Shown one piece after another: positions 1,913-8,680 of a DNA stretch of 8,680 bases; position 1 is the first letter of the stretch, and each line of letters opens with the position of its first letter. The stretch covers positions 1-8,680 of the forward strand of contig CAKTZP010000089.1 of assembly GCA_934636045.1 (NCBI GenBank), read 5' to 3'. The notes beneath the pieces were generated by a model, which was given only the letters and a program-made list of their open reading frames with translations, ran no database searches and had not been told where the DNA came from. Position numbers and translations under genes: made by a program. This DNA is from an uncultured Oscillospiraceae bacterium. GTDB taxonomy: Bacteria; Bacillota; Clostridia; Oscillospirales; Oscillospiraceae.

Positions 1913-3157
1913 TTACGCGCGGGGCAGGCCGAAGGCCTCCACCAGCGCTTCGATCTCTTCATCGGTAATGTGGATGATCTCGCCAAGGGGTGCCGTGTCG
2001 ATCACAGACCGCGCCGTCGCCTCCATAACCTCCATGCGGTCAAACGCCTTCAGGAGCGTGTTGCCCGTTGTCACCGCGCCGACGTTTTCCGCCAAAAGCG
2101 CTGGCTTGGCCGGGGCAAACCGGGCGGCGACGGCCTCCGGCGCGTCATAGTAACGGTCAAACGCTTCGTACAGCACGTCGCGCAGTTGGATATAGCTCTC
2201 CGGGATCGTCCGCGCGTCAAGGTATCTGTGGCAGACCGCGAAGGCCGTCAGATACGGCGGCTGTGCGGTGATCACGGCGTTGACCTCCGGGCGGGCACGG
2301 TAGAGCGCGGCGTGCAGCTGCGCCTCGGTCTGCACCGTTTCGGTGCCGTCGGGGATCCAGAGCAAATCCTCCGGCTCGAGCAGCGCGAGGTCAAGGTCAG
2401 ACGGCGTGAGCAAAAAGCCGCCCTGCGGCAGACGCACCGAGCAGCTGCCCTGCGCAGCGGTAAAGAGTCCCGTGCGGCAGCAGCGGCGGGTCAGCTTCAA
2501 AATTTCCTGTGCCGCAGCCTCCGCGCCGGCAGGGCTAGGCTGTCCTTCCGCCGGGCGCAGACGCCGAACGCACGGTGCCGGCTGGGGAGTGCCGAGCCGC
2601 CGCGCGGCCAGCTCCAGCTCCGCACTGTAATTGAGCAGCACAAAGCGGCGGAAGGCCGTAAACATTTCCGGCGCAACAACGCATACGCCGTGATTTTCCA
2701 TCATGGCAATGTTTTGTCCCTTGGCAAAGACCCGGCAGACCTTTTCTCCCAGCGCAGCGCTGCCGGGGACATCATAGCCTGCCATGGACATCTCACCTTG
2801 CGCCGTCGCGCAGACGAGGTCCTGCAGCGGCAGCCGCCGCACAATGGAAAACGACACCGGCACCGGCGGGTGCGCATGCAAAATCGCGCGGACATCCGGC
2901 CGCAGACGGTAAACGCCGGAATGGAACGGCAGCTCGCAAGAGGGCGCGTGCTTCCCGTGGCAGATGCCGTCCGGCGAAACGCAAACGATATCCTCCGGCG
3001 TCAGAGAGCCCTTATCGATGCCGGACGGGGTGATCCAAATATTTCCCTCCTCGTCCCGCACGGAAAGATTGCCGCCGGACATGGTCGTCAGCCCCTGATC
3101 ATAAATGCGCTGCATAAAAAACACCAGCAGCTGCGCGGGCGCAATGTTCCTGTTCAT
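1913..3157 (-). CDS. Tandem class II aldolase/adducin protein, second half degenerate
   Basis: The 414-residue protein holds two copies of the class II aldolase/adducin fold (fuculose-phosphate aldolase type, Zn-dependent retro-aldol cleavage). Domain 1 (about 5-190) keeps the working features: SGGNLSVR (27-34), TPSGID (43-48), Glu75 in PSCELPFH, HAHPP (94-98) and NHG with His156, giving three likely zinc histidines (94, 96, 156). Domain 2 (about 213-400) has the same order of motifs but lost the metal ligands: AQGSCSVR (235-242), TPSDLD (251-256), TAQPP (297-301) and ENVG (357-360). A Pro/Ala-rich linker (190-212) joins them. The start at 3157 is chosen because AAAGGGGA lies 8-9 bases upstream; GTG at 3217 and ATG at 3193 lack a ribosome site. 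It is first in the lipid operon, behind the promoter at 3355-3383. Substrate is unknown. Confidence 0.82.
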   Translation of the reverse strand: MNRNIAPAQLLVFFMQRIYDQGLTTMSGGNLSVRDEEGNIWITPSGIDKGSLTPEDIVCVSPDGICHGKHAPSCELPFHSGVYRLRPDVRAILHAHPPVPVSFSIVRRLPLQDLVCATAQGEMSMAGYDVPGSAALGEKVCRVFAKGQNIAMMENHGVCVVAPEMFTAFRRFVLLNYSAELELAARRLGTPQPAPCVRRLRPAEGQPSPAGAEAAAQEILKLTRRCCRTGLFTAAQGSCSVRLPQGGFLLTPSDLDLALLEPEDLLWIPDGTETVQTEAQLHAALYRARPEVNAVITAQPPYLTAFAVCHRYLDARTIPESYIQLRDVLYEAFDRYYDAPEAVAARFAPAKPALLAENVGAVTTGNTLLKAFDRMEVMEATARSVIDTAPLGEIIHITDEEIEALVEAFGLPRA

Positions 3158-3280
3158 GATATCGTTCCCCTTTCCATATAAAACCTCATGCATGCGTACC
3201 GCACCACGAAAATGCACAAATACCGGTGCACGAAGCTTTTGTGCAGCATTTCCGGTTGCCCTGCAGGGGCGAGGAAATGG

Positions 3281-3327
3281 CTGCGTTCTTATTTTGCTAT
3301 GCTTTTGTATAGCAAAATAAGACGCAG
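3281..3327. other. Long leader hairpin (18-19 bp, one bulge)
   Basis: Left arm 3281-3300 and right arm 3309-3327 pair along 19 positions, with one extra T at 3286/3287 and an 8-base loop at 3301-3308. The inner 13 bp (CTTATTTTGCTAT) are perfect. In the leftward transcript this stem lies in the 5' leader of the aldolase gene, about 125 bases ahead of its start. Its distal arm shares 3320-3327 with the terminator-like hairpin at 3320-3354, so both cannot form fully at once. No U-tract follows it in either direction, so it is not itself a terminator. The remaining leader (3158-3280) shows no further gene; it has a CCCTGCAGGG palindrome at 3259-3268. Confidence 0.65.
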
Positions 3328-3354
3328 AGAGCGGGCATTCCCCTCTCTGCGTCT
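3314..3354 (-). terminator. Terminator hairpin of the Se/S operon, overlapping aldolase promoter
   Basis: On the minus strand a 12-bp stem (3343-3354 with 3320-3331), extended by an inner 3-bp GGG/CCC around a 4-base loop with one bulged base, is followed by TTATTTT (3320-3314). This is a credible intrinsic terminator for the leftward yedE-tusA-DUF3343 operon that ends at 3413. Its outer base lies next to the -10 box (3355-3360) of the aldolase promoter. A transcript started there would begin inside the first arm and could form only the inner 6+3 bp. Confidence 0.65.
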
Positions 3355-3383
3355 ATTTTAAACCGAAAAACAAATTCTGTCAA
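3355..3383 (-). promoter_or_regulatory. Sigma-A type promoter for the aldolase operon
   Basis: On the minus strand TTGACA (3383-3378) and TAAAAT (3360-3355) are separated by exactly 17 bases, a near-consensus housekeeping promoter. The predicted start is an A near 3348, giving a leader of about 190 bases before the aldolase ATG at 3157. The promoter lies just past the last gene of the upstream leftward operon. The spacer is AT-rich, unlike the GC-rich coding DNA around it. Confidence 0.8.
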
Positions 3384-3412
3384 TATTCGTACGCCGCAAA
3401 CCTGTCGGCACC

Positions 3413-3658
3413 TCACGCCTCGGCCGAGCGGTAGACCGTCTCATAGCCTGTGGGGCTCTGGCGGACGATCATCTCGATCTCCTCGGCATCGGCCGCCTCA
3501 GGCGGCAGCCAGCCCCCTTCACAGCGGACGCAGGTGCCGCAGCTGCTGCTGAGACTGCGCGGCACCGGCATCAGCACTGCCGGAATCCCCGCGGCCTCAC
3601 AGGCGCGCTTATAGCGAATCGCGCCAAAGTGGGAGTAGACCGTTGCGAGGTAAATCAT
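3413..3658 (-). CDS. DUF3343 putative Se/S carrier-like protein
   Basis: This 81-residue protein matches the DUF3343 family (Pfam name Se/S carrier protein-like), small single-domain proteins that co-occur with selenium genes. Diagnostic features are an N-terminal SHFGAIRYKRACEAAG (9-24), then LMPVPRSLSSSCG (29-41), where PvPr...SSCG is the family signature and Cys40 the likely chalcogen-carrying residue. Here the cysteine sits in a C40-x2-C43-x2-C46 cluster. The start overlaps the TusA stop as ATGA (3655-3658). It is last in the yedE-tusA-DUF3343 operon, consistent with passing Se or S between the membrane importer and cytoplasmic enzymes. The biochemical role of the family is inferred from gene context, not proven. 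Confidence 0.82.
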   Translation of the reverse strand: MIYLATVYSHFGAIRYKRACEAAGIPAVLMPVPRSLSSSCGTCVRCEGGWLPPEAADAEEIEMIVRQSPTGYETVYRSAEA

Positions 3659-3861
3659 TTCGTGAAGGTCAGCGTATATTCGCCGTCGCTCTCCTCAACC
3701 TTGACGCCGTAGCCCTGATGGGCAGCGTAGCGGGAGGTGTTTTCCTTCGCGGCGTGGTTATCTACAATGATCTGATAGGATTTTTCGTTTGAGGCCATCG
3801 CTTCCCGCAGCAGCAGAACCGGCTCCGGGCAGGACAGACCGCGTGCATCGATCAATTTCAT
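3655..3861 (-). CDS. TusA/YedF-N-domain sulfur (selenium) carrier
   Basis: This 68-residue protein is a complete TusA-like fold. It opens with IDARGLSCPEPVLLLREAM (4-22), the family CPxP motif, with Cys11 as the expected persulfide or perselenide site. The second half, VDNHAAKENTSRYAAHQGY (33-51), matches the N-terminal domain of selenium-associated YedF rather than classical TusA of tRNA thiolation. Full-length YedF proteins are about 190-200 residues with an added C-terminal domain, so here the N domain stands alone. AAGGAG overlapping the yedE stop sits about 10 bases ahead of its ATG, with only 14 bp between the genes. Position between the YedE transporter and DUF3343 gene supports a chalcogen relay. 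Sulfur rather than selenium as cargo cannot be excluded. Confidence 0.85.
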   Translation of the reverse strand: MKLIDARGLSCPEPVLLLREAMASNEKSYQIIVDNHAAKENTSRYAAHQGYGVKVEESDGEYTLTFTK

Positions 3862-3875
3862 ATAATTTTCTCTCC

Positions 3876-4955
3876 TTATGCTTTCTTGCGGAAGGTATTC
3901 AGACAGGCGATCACGGCCACGACGCCGAGGCCGATGAGAACGGCGACCTTGCCGGCAGAGGTGGGGCCATCCGCGCTGGAGGCGAGGCCGAAGTTGTGCG
4001 CAAAGGCCGCGCCTGCGGTCAGGCCGAGGACGGTAATGGCACTGTCGCCGTTGCCCTCGCCGGATAGCACGAGCTGGCGCAGTGGGCAGCCGCCGAGCAG
4101 CACACAGCCAAAGCCGACAAGCAGCATGCCGAGGCCGTTCCAGAGCCAGTCGGTGTGCGCGACGGGCTGGCCTTCCATTGCGAGTTTAAAGTAGGTTCCG
4201 TCGGTCACACCGGTGAGGACAAGGTTCATCACCAGCGCGCTGAGCAGAATGGCGATAAAGCCGAACAGCAGCTTGAATTCCTTGAACAGGACGGCATCAC
4301 GGATGCCGCCAACCATGCAAAGACGCGTGCGCTGCGCCAGTGCACCGACAATCAGGCCGGCGATCAGGCTGATGGCAATGGCCGCATGCTTGGCGCCGGG
4401 GCCTTCTTCAGAGAAGAAGAGGAACGCCGGAGCGGCAATGAGCAGGACAAGCATCACGACCTGCGCCGCGGGGAAGACGATGCCGTCGAAACGGGAGAGC
4501 TTATAGGTGCGCTTGAGGGTGTAGCCCTTCTTGAGGAAGAAGACACCCACGAGGATACCCAGCGCGAAGCCGACAAGGCCAAAGATGGCATTCACGTCGC
4601 CGCCCGCAATGCGGAGGATCATACGGAACGGGCAACCGAGGAACATCAGGCAGCCGATCATCACGAAGAAGCCGAGCGCAAAGCGCGTCATCGGCGCGCT
4701 GCCGCCCTTGGAGCCAAACTCCTTCTTGCACAGCGCCATAATAAAGCTGCCAAGCACAAGGCCGATGATCTCCGGACGGATGTACTGGACAGCGGCGGCA
4801 CGGTGCAGGCCAAGGCTGCCGGCGGTGTCGCGCAGGAAGCAGGCGATGCAGAAGCCCATGTTCGCCGGATTCCCGAAGAACACCAGCAGCGCAGAGATCA
4901 CGCCGATGATGCACCCAGCCACAACGATCCAAAGCTTTTCTTTTTTCAGGGACAT
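3876..4955 (-). CDS. yedE: YedE/YeeE-family putative selenium (or sulfur) transporter
   Basis: This 359-residue inner membrane protein has about ten hydrophobic segments (near 8-28, 62-77, 92-110, 124-141, 159-182, 190-208, 225-248, 272-290, 303-320, 333-351). It carries the conserved cysteine motifs of the YeeE/YedE family, which in YeeE lie along the thiosulfate path: GFCIACFLRD (34-43, Cys36/39), LGCPFRMILR (106-115, Cys108), RLCMVGGIRD (211-220, Cys213) and LGGCPLRQLVLSGEGN (287-302, Cys290). The two-fold repetition of motifs reflects an internal duplication. Length and motif pattern fit the selenium-linked YedE group. It is first gene of the leftward operon; AAGGAG lies 8 bases before the ATG. 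Selenium as substrate is inferred from its partners TusA/YedF, DUF3343, PLP enzyme and LysR. Confidence 0.87.
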   Translation of the reverse strand: MSLKKEKLWIVVAGCIIGVISALLVFFGNPANMGFCIACFLRDTAGSLGLHRAAAVQYIRPEIIGLVLGSFIMALCKKEFGSKGGSAPMTRFALGFFVMIGCLMFLGCPFRMILRIAGGDVNAIFGLVGFALGILVGVFFLKKGYTLKRTYKLSRFDGIVFPAAQVVMLVLLIAAPAFLFFSEEGPGAKHAAIAISLIAGLIVGALAQRTRLCMVGGIRDAVLFKEFKLLFGFIAILLSALVMNLVLTGVTDGTYFKLAMEGQPVAHTDWLWNGLGMLLVGFGCVLLGGCPLRQLVLSGEGNGDSAITVLGLTAGAAFAHNFGLASSADGPTSAGKVAVLIGLGVVAVIACLNTFRKKA

Positions 4956-4974
4956 GGTAACACTCCTTTTTTCT

Positions 4975-5017
4975 GAGAAGCCGATGATTTGGGCGCAAGC
5001 CGGACGCCGGGCTTCTC
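4975..5017 (-). promoter_or_regulatory. Stem in the yedE 5' leader
   Basis: GAGAAGCC at 4975-4982 pairs perfectly with GGCTTCTC at 5010-5017, and a smaller GGCG/CGCC stem (4992-4995 with 5005-5008) nests inside. If transcription starts near 5025, this structure fills almost the whole 70-base leader and ends just before the AAGGAG ribosome site. It could tune yedE translation. It matches no riboswitch class I recognise, and may be chance. Confidence 0.4.
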
Positions 5018-5031
5018 GATTATATAATTCC

Positions 5032-5061
5032 AGTATATTGCTCCGCGGCGGAAAAGTCCAA
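5032..5061 (-). promoter_or_regulatory. Candidate promoter for yedE operon
   Basis: On the minus strand TTGGAC (5061-5056) and TATACT (5037-5032) lie 18 bases apart, a reasonable sigma-A promoter with a predicted start near 5025. A second -10-like TATAAT (5024-5019) lies closer to the gene but has a poor -35 (CGCGGA). The -35 abuts an AT-rich dyad that may bind the LysR protein encoded in the divergent operon. Confidence 0.55.
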
Positions 5062-5078
5062 TTGTAATTATTTATAAT
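5061..5078. promoter_or_regulatory. AT-rich imperfect dyad, possible LysR operator
   Basis: The 18 bases from 5061 to 5078 (ATTGTAAT...TTATAAT) match their own reverse complement at 14 positions. LysR proteins usually bind AT-rich dyads with a T-N11-A core. The site lies between the two divergent promoters, touching the yedE -35 and about 15 bases upstream of the -35 for the aminotransferase operon. This is the placement expected for a regulator of both. The region is AT-rich, so chance symmetry is possible. Confidence 0.4.
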
Positions 5079-5092
5079 CTTTTAGAATTTAT

Positions 5093-5121
5093 TTGAAAAA
5101 CCAATAATTTTGTGGTATCAT
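5093..5121 (+). promoter_or_regulatory. Sigma-A type promoter for the aminotransferase-lysR-nudix operon
   Basis: TTGAAA (5093-5098) and TATCAT (5116-5121) are separated by 17 bases. The predicted start is near 5128. This fixes the start of the next gene: the ATG at 5120 lies inside the -10 box and cannot be in this transcript, while ATG 5150 can. Confidence 0.72.
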
Positions 5122-5149
5122 GGAAGAAAGAAACGGAGGCGCAAATCCC

Positions 5150-6310
5150 ATGGGAATTTATTTTGACAATGCCAGCACGACCTTCCCCAAGCCGCGGGCG
5201 GTCGCGGAGGCCATGGCGGCGTATCTTTTGGACGAGGGCTGCAACATCGGCCGTGGCTGCTATGCGGGAGCCTACCGCGTGGAGGAGCAGGTCTATGAAA
5301 CGCGGCAGCTGCTGTGCAAGCTGTTTCACGGTGCCAACGCGCGAAACGTCGCCTTCACCAAGAATGTCACAGAGGCTCTGAACGTGCTGCTCAAGGGCTT
5401 TCTTCACCCCGGCGACCATGTGCTGGTCTCATCCATGGAGCACAACGCCGTTATGCGTCCGCTGACGCAGCTGAGCGCGCAGGGCGTCAGCTTTTCGCGC
5501 ATCCCCTGCCGTGCTGACGGCACGCTCATCCTTGAGGCCATGGAGGAGCTGGTGCAGGAAAACACCCGGCTTGTCGTCATGACGCACGCCAGCAATGTCT
5601 GCGGCACGCTCCTCCCGCTGCAGAGGGTCGGCGAATTCTGCCGCGCGCATGGGCTGCGGTTTTTTGTCGATTCGGCGCAGACGGCAGGGGTTCTGCCGCT
5701 GGACATGCAGGCGCTGCACATCGACGCACTGGCCTTCACCGGCCACAAGGGGCTGCTTGGGCCGCAGGGCATCGGCGGCTTCATCCTCGCGCCGGAGCTG
5801 GTGGAGCAGCTGGAGCCGCTCCTTTCCGGCGGCACGGGCAGCATCAGCCACACAGAGGAGGTACCGCCGTTCATGCCTGACCGTTTTGAGGCCGGAACGC
5901 AGAATCTGCCGGGCATTTTAGGTCTGCGCGCCAGCCTTCAATGGCTGCAGGAAACCGGTCTTAACCACATCTACACCCACGAGCAGGAGCTCACGGCACA
6001 GTTTTTACAGGGCGTGCACGATATCCCCGGCCTGCAGCTGTTTGGTCTGCCGGACGCCGAGGGGCGCACGGGCGTTGTGTCCCTCCGCCTCGGCACGACA
6101 GATCCGGCGCAGCTGGCCTATGCACTGGACACGACCTACGGCATCATGACCCGCGTTGGCCTCCATTGCGCACCAAATGCGCACCGGACACTCGGCTCCT
6201 TCCCGACCGGCACAGTGCGGTTTTCCTTTGGCTGGTACAATACGCAGGACGAGGTCGCGCAGGCCGTTCAGGCGCTGCGCGCGCTGCAGGAGGACACGGC
6301 ATGGAGCTAA
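5150..6310 (+). CDS. Class V aminotransferase, cysteine desulfurase family (selenium cluster type)
   Basis: This 386-residue PLP enzyme belongs to the cysteine desulfurase/selenocysteine lyase group, which removes S or Se from cysteine or selenocysteine as an enzyme-bound persulfide or selenide. Visible sites, numbered from ATG 5150: IYFDNASTTFPKP (3-15), MEHNAV with His98, FVDSAQTAG with Asp174 and Gln177, TGHKGLLGPQG with PLP-binding Lys200, and a C-terminal GLHCAPNAHRTLG with likely catalytic Cys340, then TGTVRFSFGWYNT. The closing motif is typical of the branch often found beside yedE/yedF-type genes rather than housekeeping IscS or SufS. GGAGG (5135-5139) lies 10 bases before the start. 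It is divergent from the yedE operon and overlaps lysR by 10 bp. Whether it prefers Cys or Sec is unknown. Confidence 0.87.
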   Translation: MGIYFDNASTTFPKPRAVAEAMAAYLLDEGCNIGRGCYAGAYRVEEQVYETRQLLCKLFHGANARNVAFTKNVTEALNVLLKGFLHPGDHVLVSSMEHNAVMRPLTQLSAQGVSFSRIPCRADGTLILEAMEELVQENTRLVVMTHASNVCGTLLPLQRVGEFCRAHGLRFFVDSAQTAGVLPLDMQALHIDALAFTGHKGLLGPQGIGGFILAPELVEQLEPLLSGGTGSISHTEEVPPFMPDRFEAGTQNLPGILGLRASLQWLQETGLNHIYTHEQELTAQFLQGVHDIPGLQLFGLPDAEGRTGVVSLRLGTTDPAQLAYALDTTYGIMTRVGLHCAPNAHRTLGSFPTGTVRFSFGWYNTQDEVAQAVQALRALQEDTAWS

Positions 6311-7752: not shown

Positions 7753-8229
7753 TTGGAAATAAGAACGCAGCCGATGGTGCAGCGGGAGGCGGAAAAACCC
7801 GCCCTATCCGCCGGGATCGGCACGCTGCCCGCGCAGGCGCCGCTGGCCAACCCGTTCGTACCCTTTCAGCAAAAGAACCCGCCGACCTATCCAGCCAAGG
7901 AGGGTGTTGTGCGCGGTACTCTGTTCCCCGGCCTTGATCTGCCGTTTTCTGGCATGGTCAAGGAAGGCCCGCTCAGCAAAACACCGCTGCAGGAACTGCA
8001 AACGCTCAGCTTCGCCATCGTGGAGCTGGGAGAGTATCTGGACACCCATCCGGACGACACGGACGCGTTTGCGCTGTTTCAGTCCTATGCCAAGCTCTAT
8101 GCGGAGGGGCGAGCGGCCTATGAGCAGCAGTTCGGCAGCCTGACGCAGCGCGACAGTGCGAATGGCTCGCGCTACTGCTGGCTGAACGATCCATGGCCGT
8201 GGGATTTCGTGGCCGGTGAGGAGGAATAA
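7753..8229 (+). CDS. cotJB: Spore coat protein, CotJA-CotJB fusion
   Basis: This 158-residue protein joins two normally separate coat proteins. Residues about 33-72 match CotJA: PFVPFQ, then YPAKEGVVRGTLFPGLDLPF (46-65), the family's GTlFPxL motif. Residues about 77-153 match CotJB: LQELQTLSFAIVELGEYLDT (79-98), HPDDTDAF, and the closing tryptophan-rich WLNDPWPWDF (143-152). In Bacillus subtilis cotJA, cotJB and cotJC form one mother-cell operon whose products go into the inner coat. The start is TTG at 7753, chosen for a perfect AAGGAGG 8 bases upstream. The first 32 residues are unrecognised and low in order-promoting residues. cotJC follows after 2 bp. Family calls are strong; the fusion is seen directly as one open frame. 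Confidence 0.87.
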   Translation: MEIRTQPMVQREAEKPALSAGIGTLPAQAPLANPFVPFQQKNPPTYPAKEGVVRGTLFPGLDLPFSGMVKEGPLSKTPLQELQTLSFAIVELGEYLDTHPDDTDAFALFQSYAKLYAEGRAAYEQQFGSLTQRDSANGSRYCWLNDPWPWDFVAGEEE

Positions 8230-8231
8230 GC

Positions 8232-8456
8232 ATGTTTGTGTATGAGAAGAAGCTGCAATATCCCGTAAAAATTCATACGCCTAATCCCCGCCTCGCCGCC
8301 ATCATCATCACCCAGTATGGTGGACGTTATTCCAATAGACTACAATATCAGACATTTCAAACACCTTCGCCGGAACCCGGCGAAGGTGTTCTTCGTTATC
8401 TCTCGCGGTACATCTTCTGCAAAAGCTGCACTTTTGTGGCTTTCTCGATCTGTTGA
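8232..8456 (+). pseudogene. cotJC: cotJC 5' fragment, interrupted after about 31 codons
   Basis: The frame opens with MFVYEKKLQYPVKI and continues to IITQYGG (25-31), the unmistakable N-terminus of CotJC, a manganese-catalase-like coat protein of about 190 residues. GAGGAGG lies 7 bases before the ATG, and the gene is 2 bp behind cotJAB, so initiation signals are intact. From codon 32 (8325) the frame no longer resembles CotJC, where DGEL... and the LRYL-QRY ferritin-like helix should follow; it runs on to a stop at 8454-8456 through a hairpin and antisense to another gene. The break is clean, with no gradual decay. The rest of cotJC is not in the window. Likely cause is insertion of a mobile element at the Gly30-Gly31 codons; deletion or a misassembly are alternatives. 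Confidence 0.85.
8360..8390 (-). terminator. Strong 14-bp hairpin after the ferritin-like gene
   Basis: Arms 8360-8373 and 8377-8390 are perfect complements around a 3-base loop. The hairpin lies 5 bp past the stop codon of the leftward gene, the position of a terminator. On the minus strand only TGTTTGAAAT follows, so the U-tract is weak. It may be a terminator with a poor tail, or a structure at the element end. Confidence 0.55.
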
Positions 8457-8680
8457 TCATGTGAGTACTCATACACCGCCATGATTGCCACCGGTACCTC
8501 AAGGCCCTTCTGCCGGTATGCCTCCATGTGCCCCAGCACACAATCATGCAGCGCCGTCGCGTGGGTCGTCTCCTCGCCGGAAAGCCGTGCAAACAAGCTT
8601 GCTGTCTCCGGCTCGGTGTCCCGGTACTCCAGCGCCAGCTTCGCGTAGTCGCAAGCGTCCTGCAGCTCGTCGTCGATGCG
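8396..8680 (-). CDS. Ferritin-like four-helix protein, 3' part, likely phage-borne
   Basis: Only the last 94 residues are present; the 5' end lies beyond the right edge. The open frame runs unbroken from position 8680 to the stop at 8396-8398. The sequence is helical throughout: IDDELQDACDYAKLALEYR (2-20 of the visible part), then ETASLFARLSGEETTHATAL (25-44) with an EETTH motif (36-40) of the ExxH type used by ferritin-like proteins for metal, then a helix from about 66 with EYSHDQQIEKATK (71-83) and a basic end KMYRER. Such acidic two- to four-helix proteins occur in Firmicutes phages, usually without known function. A shorter TTG-started frame at 8596 is internal. It does not look like the missing part of cotJC, since it is antisense and lacks its motifs. 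Confidence 0.65.
   Translation of the reverse strand, partial: RIDDELQDACDYAKLALEYRDTEPETASLFARLSGEETTHATALHDCVLGHMEAYRQKGLEVPVAIMAVYEYSHDQQIEKATKVQLLQKMYRER

Follow-up and report, generated by a model that had tools for sequence, protein, structure and literature searches.

An element inserted in the spore coat gene cotJC, and its likely place among recurrent serine recombinase insertions in Clostridia

The stretch of DNA analyzed here (the window; 8,680 nucleotides from an uncultured Oscillospiraceae bacterium) carries near its right end the start of cotJC, whose coding sequence breaks off after codon 31. This position, called site A below, is one of five at which cotJC is cut in relatives. 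The features around the break are as follows, where coordinates are those of the window.

7753-8229, forward strand: fused cotJA-cotJB gene with a TTG start, the upstream partner of cotJC.
8232-8324, forward strand: 5' part of cotJC (codons 1-31), severed from its remainder, with a match to the Mn_catalase profile that ends at QYGG.
8319-8323, forward strand: GGTGG core common to the host gene and the element, the predicted site-A crossover region, seen as GGNGG at the junctions of relatives.
8324-8343, forward strand: element end forming half of an attachment site (P' arm, ACGTTATTCCAATAGACTAC), recognized by its matrix match to 16 site-A left ends.
8324-8680, no strand assigned: visible portion of the element's left end, recognized by the attachment-arm match.
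8360-8390, no strand assigned: hairpin (AACACCTTCGCCGG / CCGGCGAAGGTGTT), from its sequence a likely terminator for the leftward gene.
8396-8680, reverse strand: partial leftward gene of the element, a 94-aa ORF that runs off the window and has weak ferritin/rubrerythrin similarity.

The 158-aa ORF at 7753-8229 holds both a CotJA domain (Pfam, E 2.1e-12) and a CotJB domain (E 4.9e-25). The same two genes are apparently fused in a faecal record (L001, 1465-1959, a 164-aa frame), and the fused protein, when used as a query, aligned over most of its own length in several relatives. Behind it, the ORF from 8232 (MFVYEKKLQYPVKIHTPNPRLAAIIITQYGG...) aligns through its first 33 residues with the start of the Pfam profile Mn_catalase (positions 1-33 of 284, E 2.2e-8). 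A preliminary description of this DNA had proposed that cotJC is cut at codon 31 without decay, and the reading frame bears this out: similarity is lost after QYGG with no frameshift or stop ahead of the break, and the sequence beyond is unrelated. The AT-rich stretch described there is also present, with G+C at 11 of the first 36 bases past codon 31 (counted by eye). The window stops 357 bases into the element, and the recombinase and far end lie beyond it.

The hairpin at 8360-8390 likely terminates the leftward gene, and two elements of relatives (L073 and L084) likewise have hairpins just inside the element. The leftward gene itself had been described as ferritin-like and of phage character. 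The ORF is present and has some ferritin similarity, which warrants only a weak label since both matches (Rubrerythrin, E 0.014; MbfA, E 0.0087) fall below the curated cut-offs. The phage character finds no support in PHROGs, where the gene has no match. It has 18 relatives in the protein database (P0001-P0018). Most of these small proteins measure 103-104 aa, E and H residues are conserved among them, and none has a precomputed Pfam domain. The longest contigs for five of the 18 measure 41.4-43.5 kb, a size that would suit phages. No relative of the gene was found in two scans of IMG/VR or among the relatives' loci then gathered. The CotJA-CotJB query also has no relative in IMG/VR, and the window's left end is absent from it as an exact pattern. 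The species of the window is not among the 394 genomes of the order that were searched, in which the best match to its class II aldolase is 53% identical. Elsewhere in the window (3413-6310), a YeeE/YedE-type transporter and a class V aminotransferase lie beside small genes that we take to be TusA-like and DUF3343-like, an arrangement that resembles a sulfur or selenium relay cluster.

A 20-base matrix was built from the 16 site-A left ends of other cotJC insertions, with the window excluded. The window junction scores 19.2 on this matrix, within the range of the other site-A ends (3.4 to 23.3), and it is the only one of 17,320 positions in the window to score that high. The break is therefore more than a chance loss of similarity. 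In the relatives' loci, 11 of 1,446,092 positions score as high as the window junction or higher, and all 11 are ends of site-A elements: five left ends that contributed to the matrix and six reverse-complemented right ends that did not. Reverse complements of right ends are expected among the matches, because the site is near-palindromic. Three of the 16 left ends (G006, G030 and G074) fit the motif poorly, and the arm closest to that of the window is found in G174 (17 of 20 bases identical). The attachment site consists of a short core flanked by inverted-repeat arms. Its left half is seen in the window and both halves in relatives, where GGNGG occurs at the left and the right site-A junctions alike. 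Integration of an element into cotJC after codon 31, as originally proposed, is strongly supported by the attachment-arm match and by dozens of relatives in which cotJC continues beyond a recombinase-bearing element. The cotJC remainder, the core repeat and the recombinase that the preliminary description had proposed to look for to the right of the break were all found in these relatives.

The first clue to such relatives was a faecal record (MT839280, the L001 mentioned above, labeled 'Bacteriophage sp.') whose cotJC breaks off at LTDIGTEE, with a 562-aa serine recombinase frame at the break. Among eight faecal records of this label in which CotJC was matched, six contain cut pieces. Relatives of the fused CotJA-CotJB protein were found at 16 loci, and genomes were searched for 13 of them; cotJC is in two or three pieces in six (G002, G003, G006, G009, G010 and G013), with G003 and G006 cut at the codon used in the window. 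Of 200 genomes drawn from the G003 family (Oscillospiraceae), 160 had a match, and the best match was full length in 99 of these. At least two cotJC pieces cut at recurrent sites are present in 48 of the 160. This count comes from listing the pieces of the 60 genomes other than G003 that lack a full-length best match, and adding G003. The rest of these 61 have a single piece, pieces at contig ends (the reason for leaving G178 out of the split count) or a distant paralogue. The pieces lie on one contig and strand in 28 of the 48 split genomes and on different contigs only in the other 20. A further stretch of cotJC was not found in G065, G071, G155 and G184.

In the family of G009, cotJC is likewise split in 25 of the 80 genomes with a match; the figures are two of 16 for the family of G444 and at least 21 of 99 for a class-wide draw, among the matches listed and with some of the 99 represented by a distant paralogue only. 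G003 and G079 are counted in two draws. Cutting of cotJC is not universal, since all 50 orthologues from the Bacillus family are uncut. Ribosomal protein S2 served as a control in 150 genomes of the family of G003. It matched in 139, and in none of these do two pieces share a contig. Fourteen of the matches are clearly partial; in seven of the 14 the best match starts within 10 bases of a contig start, and in seven the gene is in two pieces on different contigs. Breaks in draft assemblies are thus a nuisance for the 20 genomes with pieces on different contigs and not for the 28. Chance fragmentation of drafts was rejected as a general explanation, as it accounts neither for these 28 same-contig, same-strand genomes nor for the recurrence of the cut points. 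The same kind of structure is found inside contigs of 2.2-2.3 Mb (G087 and G111).

Some genomes depart from the simple arrangement. A second, intact copy of cotJC is present in several, for example, G009 and G256, where rejoining of the split copy would be needless. In G156 (L065-L067), cotJC is in three pieces, of which the last is in reverse orientation, and the left end has a site-A recombinase; this is a rearranged state that may be inverted. On single contigs of two other genomes the pieces lie about 157 kb apart (G811 C1, 2541492 and 2698411) and about 87 kb apart (G256 C1, 2098502 and 2185270), far above the measured inserts.

Cuts in the relatives' cotJC genes recur at codons 31 (site A), 62 (B), 65 (B2), 134-136 (C) and 174-175 (D), and some genes hold two or three elements. 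A serine recombinase is encoded in all 23 complete inserts that lie on one locus. Of 54 recombinase frames extracted, 51 were used, after a second copy of the L030 enzyme and two fragments (L060_7757 and L076) had been dropped. In a midpoint-rooted tree of these 51 large serine recombinases, whose sites were assigned by hand from position, each site corresponds to one clade (A, 15; B, 19; B2, 4; C, 6; D, 7), with support of 1.0 for every clade except B (0.32). Automatic assignment, by a program to which B and B2 are indistinguishable, agrees for 47 of 51, leaves three open and misnames one, L033. The placement of L033 at site A stems from an over-extended alignment and was rejected; its junction is of type B. 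One enzyme from each of the five clades matches the Resolvase, Recombinase and zinc-ribbon domains (PF00239, PF07508 and PF13408), with a zinc-ribbon score for L040 of 25.0 against a cut-off of 25.3. The recombinase of site-A elements mostly lies at the right end in the same orientation as cotJC, which would explain why none is seen in the window, where only the left end is visible. A group II intron or an intein was considered and rejected, as complete inserts carry serine recombinases and their junctions resemble inverted-repeat attachment sites.

The cut sites lie in stretches of cotJC that are somewhat above average in conservation. Mean conservation over sites A, B, C and D (B2 excluded) is 0.783, a value matched by 2,584 of 100,000 random sets, and the single sites rank 52, 40, 13 and 72 of 188. 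CotJC is akin to Mn catalases of solved structure, and we take the cut sites to lie near the codons of residues that correspond to the Mn ligands in those structures.

Elements of more than one type use these sites. IMG/VR was scanned with three recombinase alignments, and keeping the best 80 loci per scan gave 238 loci. A piece of cotJC is present in 23 of these 238 best-scoring loci. One contig that is counted twice among them (L102/L180) has codons 29-63 of cotJC lying between a site-A and a site-B recombinase. Four IMG/VR viral contigs have two site-A element ends joined, and when the ends of relatives are put together they make a near-palindromic attachment site. Joined ends are the form predicted from sequence for an element that is excised or not yet integrated. 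One such free contig (L338) encodes a holin, an endolysin and a repressor. The viral contigs L338 (3765-4265) and L101 (2817-3317) each have a 166-aa gene directly inward of the free attachment site, and the first 45 residues are identical in the two; the gene may resemble one for a toxin nuclease.

At the other extreme, the insert in G002, G111 and G179 measures 3.0 to 3.15 kb and consists of the recombinase and a pyrimidine-nucleoside phosphorylase gene, neither of which is a phage structural gene. These two-gene elements, at site B, were noted in L032 (at 2498-3811), L050 (at 3000-4298) and L048 (at 1031-2332). No pyrimidine-nucleoside phosphorylase besides that of the cassette was found in the drafts of G002, G111 and G179, and a search of ten other genomes for it found none. 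Just before the recombinase of five site-B elements there is a small ORF of 58-71 aa (L044, 3030-3245; also L039, L041, L042 and L047), which overlaps the recombinase gene in three elements and lies no more than 85 bases from it in two. The one such ORF searched has no Pfam match. These small ORFs could encode a directionality factor.

Split genes offer a means to ask what becomes of cotJC. Of 53 split genomes, the 42 with the needed pieces were entered for in-silico joining at the core, leaving aside G037, G050, G065, G071, G080, G144, G155, G184, G195, G199 and G203. Joining the host flanks gave an unbroken frame in 41 genomes, with 34 genes full length and seven running into a further element; the join failed in G200, where the right-hand motif was not found. 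Since both pieces were anchored to matching codon positions, the open frame is given from the outset, and the tested properties are the loss or doubling of codons and the presence of stops. In these 41 of 42, every codon around the core is present once and the parts are free of stops.

The ratio pN/pS was calculated for 32 of the 41 joined genes, excluding G009 (215 aa) and G051 (287 aa) by length and the seven that end at a further element. The median nearest-neighbor ratio is 0.141 for these genes versus 0.111 for 24 uncut ones, and over all pairs the values are 0.211 and 0.178. Split genes are thus nearly as constrained as uncut genes, if slightly less so. More telling are pairs of genomes with a common insertion. 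The sister species G164 and G088 share a site-A element that is collinear over 7.6 kb at 88%; their recombinases have a pS of 0.443, and the split cotJC has a pN of 0.021 and a pS of 0.489. The corresponding cotJC values are 0.021 and 0.620 for G158 and G079 (site B), and 0.030 and 0.383 for G066 and G209, which carry a double insertion (B and D). In these three sister pairs sharing an insertion, cotJC is under strong purifying selection (pN/pS 0.033-0.079). Six remaining, more distant pairs range from 0.133 to 0.329. The highest ratio belongs to G168 and G052, the latter including a short tail of element sequence; their recombinases are less diverged than cotJC (pS 0.32 versus 0.53), which suggests that the element moved between species. 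Why selection should persist on a gene that is interrupted is not easily understood unless the gene is rejoined or uncut alleles are common in populations. Sigma-E-like promoters were sought upstream of 46 recombinases from relatives, with a negative outcome for 45; only L040 beats 95 of 100 shuffles.

One developmental excision in spore formers is that of skin, which interrupts sigK, a mother-cell sporulation gene, in Bacillus subtilis and Clostridioides difficile and is removed by a large serine recombinase with precise rejoining of the gene. The cotJC elements are like skin in residing inside a sporulation gene and encoding a large serine recombinase. They differ in the gene that is occupied, in the use of five sites with one clade per site and up to three elements per copy, and in that their excision is a prediction. 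Excision during sporulation has been reported for elements in sigK, spsM, spoVFB, gerE and yabG (PMC5595907, PMC10747680). The gin element in gerE of Bacillus cereus ATCC10987 requires a serine recombinase and an extra factor to rejoin its sporulation gene, and it is like the cotJC elements in being possibly of non-phage nature and in having attachment sites with an imperfect inverted repeat and a short core (PMC5595907). It has three recombinase genes (PMC5595907), whereas the 3-kb cotJC elements have one recombinase and one phosphorylase. The yin element in yabG of Clostridium botulinum, a prophage-like element inside a Clostridium sporulation gene, has been seen both integrated and as a circle, and is described as unique to one strain (PMC10747680); cotJC insertions, in contrast, recur in many genomes. 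SPbeta, an active phage excised from the spore-envelope gene spsM of B. subtilis during sporulation, is a case of one phage and one gene (PMC4191935), compared with five sites and five recombinase clades in cotJC.

Two reports come closer to cotJC itself or to its pattern of insertion. The C. difficile prophage phi027 neighbors a cotJC homolog, which lies downstream of attR (PMC11222575, PMC12122855). This phage is adjacent to the gene, and a split or rejoined gene is not among what these sources report. A survey of large serine recombinases describes diverse enzymes with a single conserved target inside a coding sequence, that of a prolyl isomerase, much as many recombinases target cotJC, and its main text mentions neither catalase nor spore coat (PMC10083194). 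The main texts of PMC5595907 and PMC10747680 do not mention cotJC, and searches of the open-access literature, judged by title and abstract, brought up no report of insertion into cotJC or an Mn catalase gene by a prophage or recombinase. On sequence grounds, the cotJC elements appear to resemble skin and gin and to differ from them in the number of sites, clades, elements per gene and hosts.

The window contains the left end of an element that was probably placed in cotJC by a large serine recombinase and is predicted to be precisely excised at sporulation. The recombinase, encoded at the far end of the element, would integrate it at cotJC and hold it there. A directionality factor supplied by the sporulating mother cell would then reverse the reaction, so that the element departs in circular form and the rejoined gene yields the coat catalase. 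Rejoining of this kind would be confined to the mother cell and not inherited, and the germ line could thus keep the element at little cost. The analogous elements skin, gin and yin suggest this timing of excision, which agrees with what is known of such elements and with the purifying selection seen in both halves of cotJC. With moderate confidence, this model may be extended to many Clostridia, in which cotJC would be a DNA-spliced gene, entered at five sites near Mn-binding codons by five recombinase clades, with up to three elements per gene. To read a multiply cut gene, the mother cell would have to excise its two or three elements separately. The insert of some lineages may have shrunk to the two-gene cassette and been retained as a normal part of the genome.

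It is also possible, if unlikely, that cotJC is merely a convenient and dispensable landing site, with a conserved sequence and a cheap loss, that is never rejoined in a regulated manner. This would agree with the somewhat conserved surroundings of the cut points, with the intact second copies in some genomes and with the missing sporulation promoter signal at 45 of 46 recombinases. In addition, a coat defect is not among the effects described for loss of CotJC-type proteins in the two phi027 reports (PMC11222575, PMC12122855). Against it, 41 of 42 genes have joints without a missing codon and parts without a stop, the three sister pairs show strong constraint, and genes with two or three insertions still retain their pieces. 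Slightly less probable is a fast turnover of young, transient insertions, with selection acting on uncut alleles. G013 is split while L019 is uncut even though their CotJC proteins are 98% identical, and the apparent horizontal movement of the element in G168 and G052 also suits rapid exchange. In the collinear pair G164 and G088, however, element and gene have diverged to a similar extent (pS 0.44 and 0.49), as fits an old shared insertion, and the 3-kb two-gene elements in three diverged genomes look old as well. An assembly chimera at the window junction is highly improbable and effectively ruled out by the arm match: the window contig could not be extended, but what follows the break is an attachment arm spaced as in other insertions, and structures of the same kind lie within the megabase contigs of G087 and G111.

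If cotJC is indeed rejoined at sporulation, it adds to a short list. Developmental DNA excision in spore formers has so far involved a handful of genes (sigK, spsM, spoVFB, gerE and yabG). Here, one coat gene has been hit repeatedly, in two large families and across the class, at five sites and by five recombinase clades. How and why sporulation genes come to house mobile DNA thus becomes a comparative question with many replicates. The recombinases, each with its own attachment site, could also serve as tools. There may also be many genomes in which annotation records cotJC as truncated or missing even though the gene could be functional in spores.
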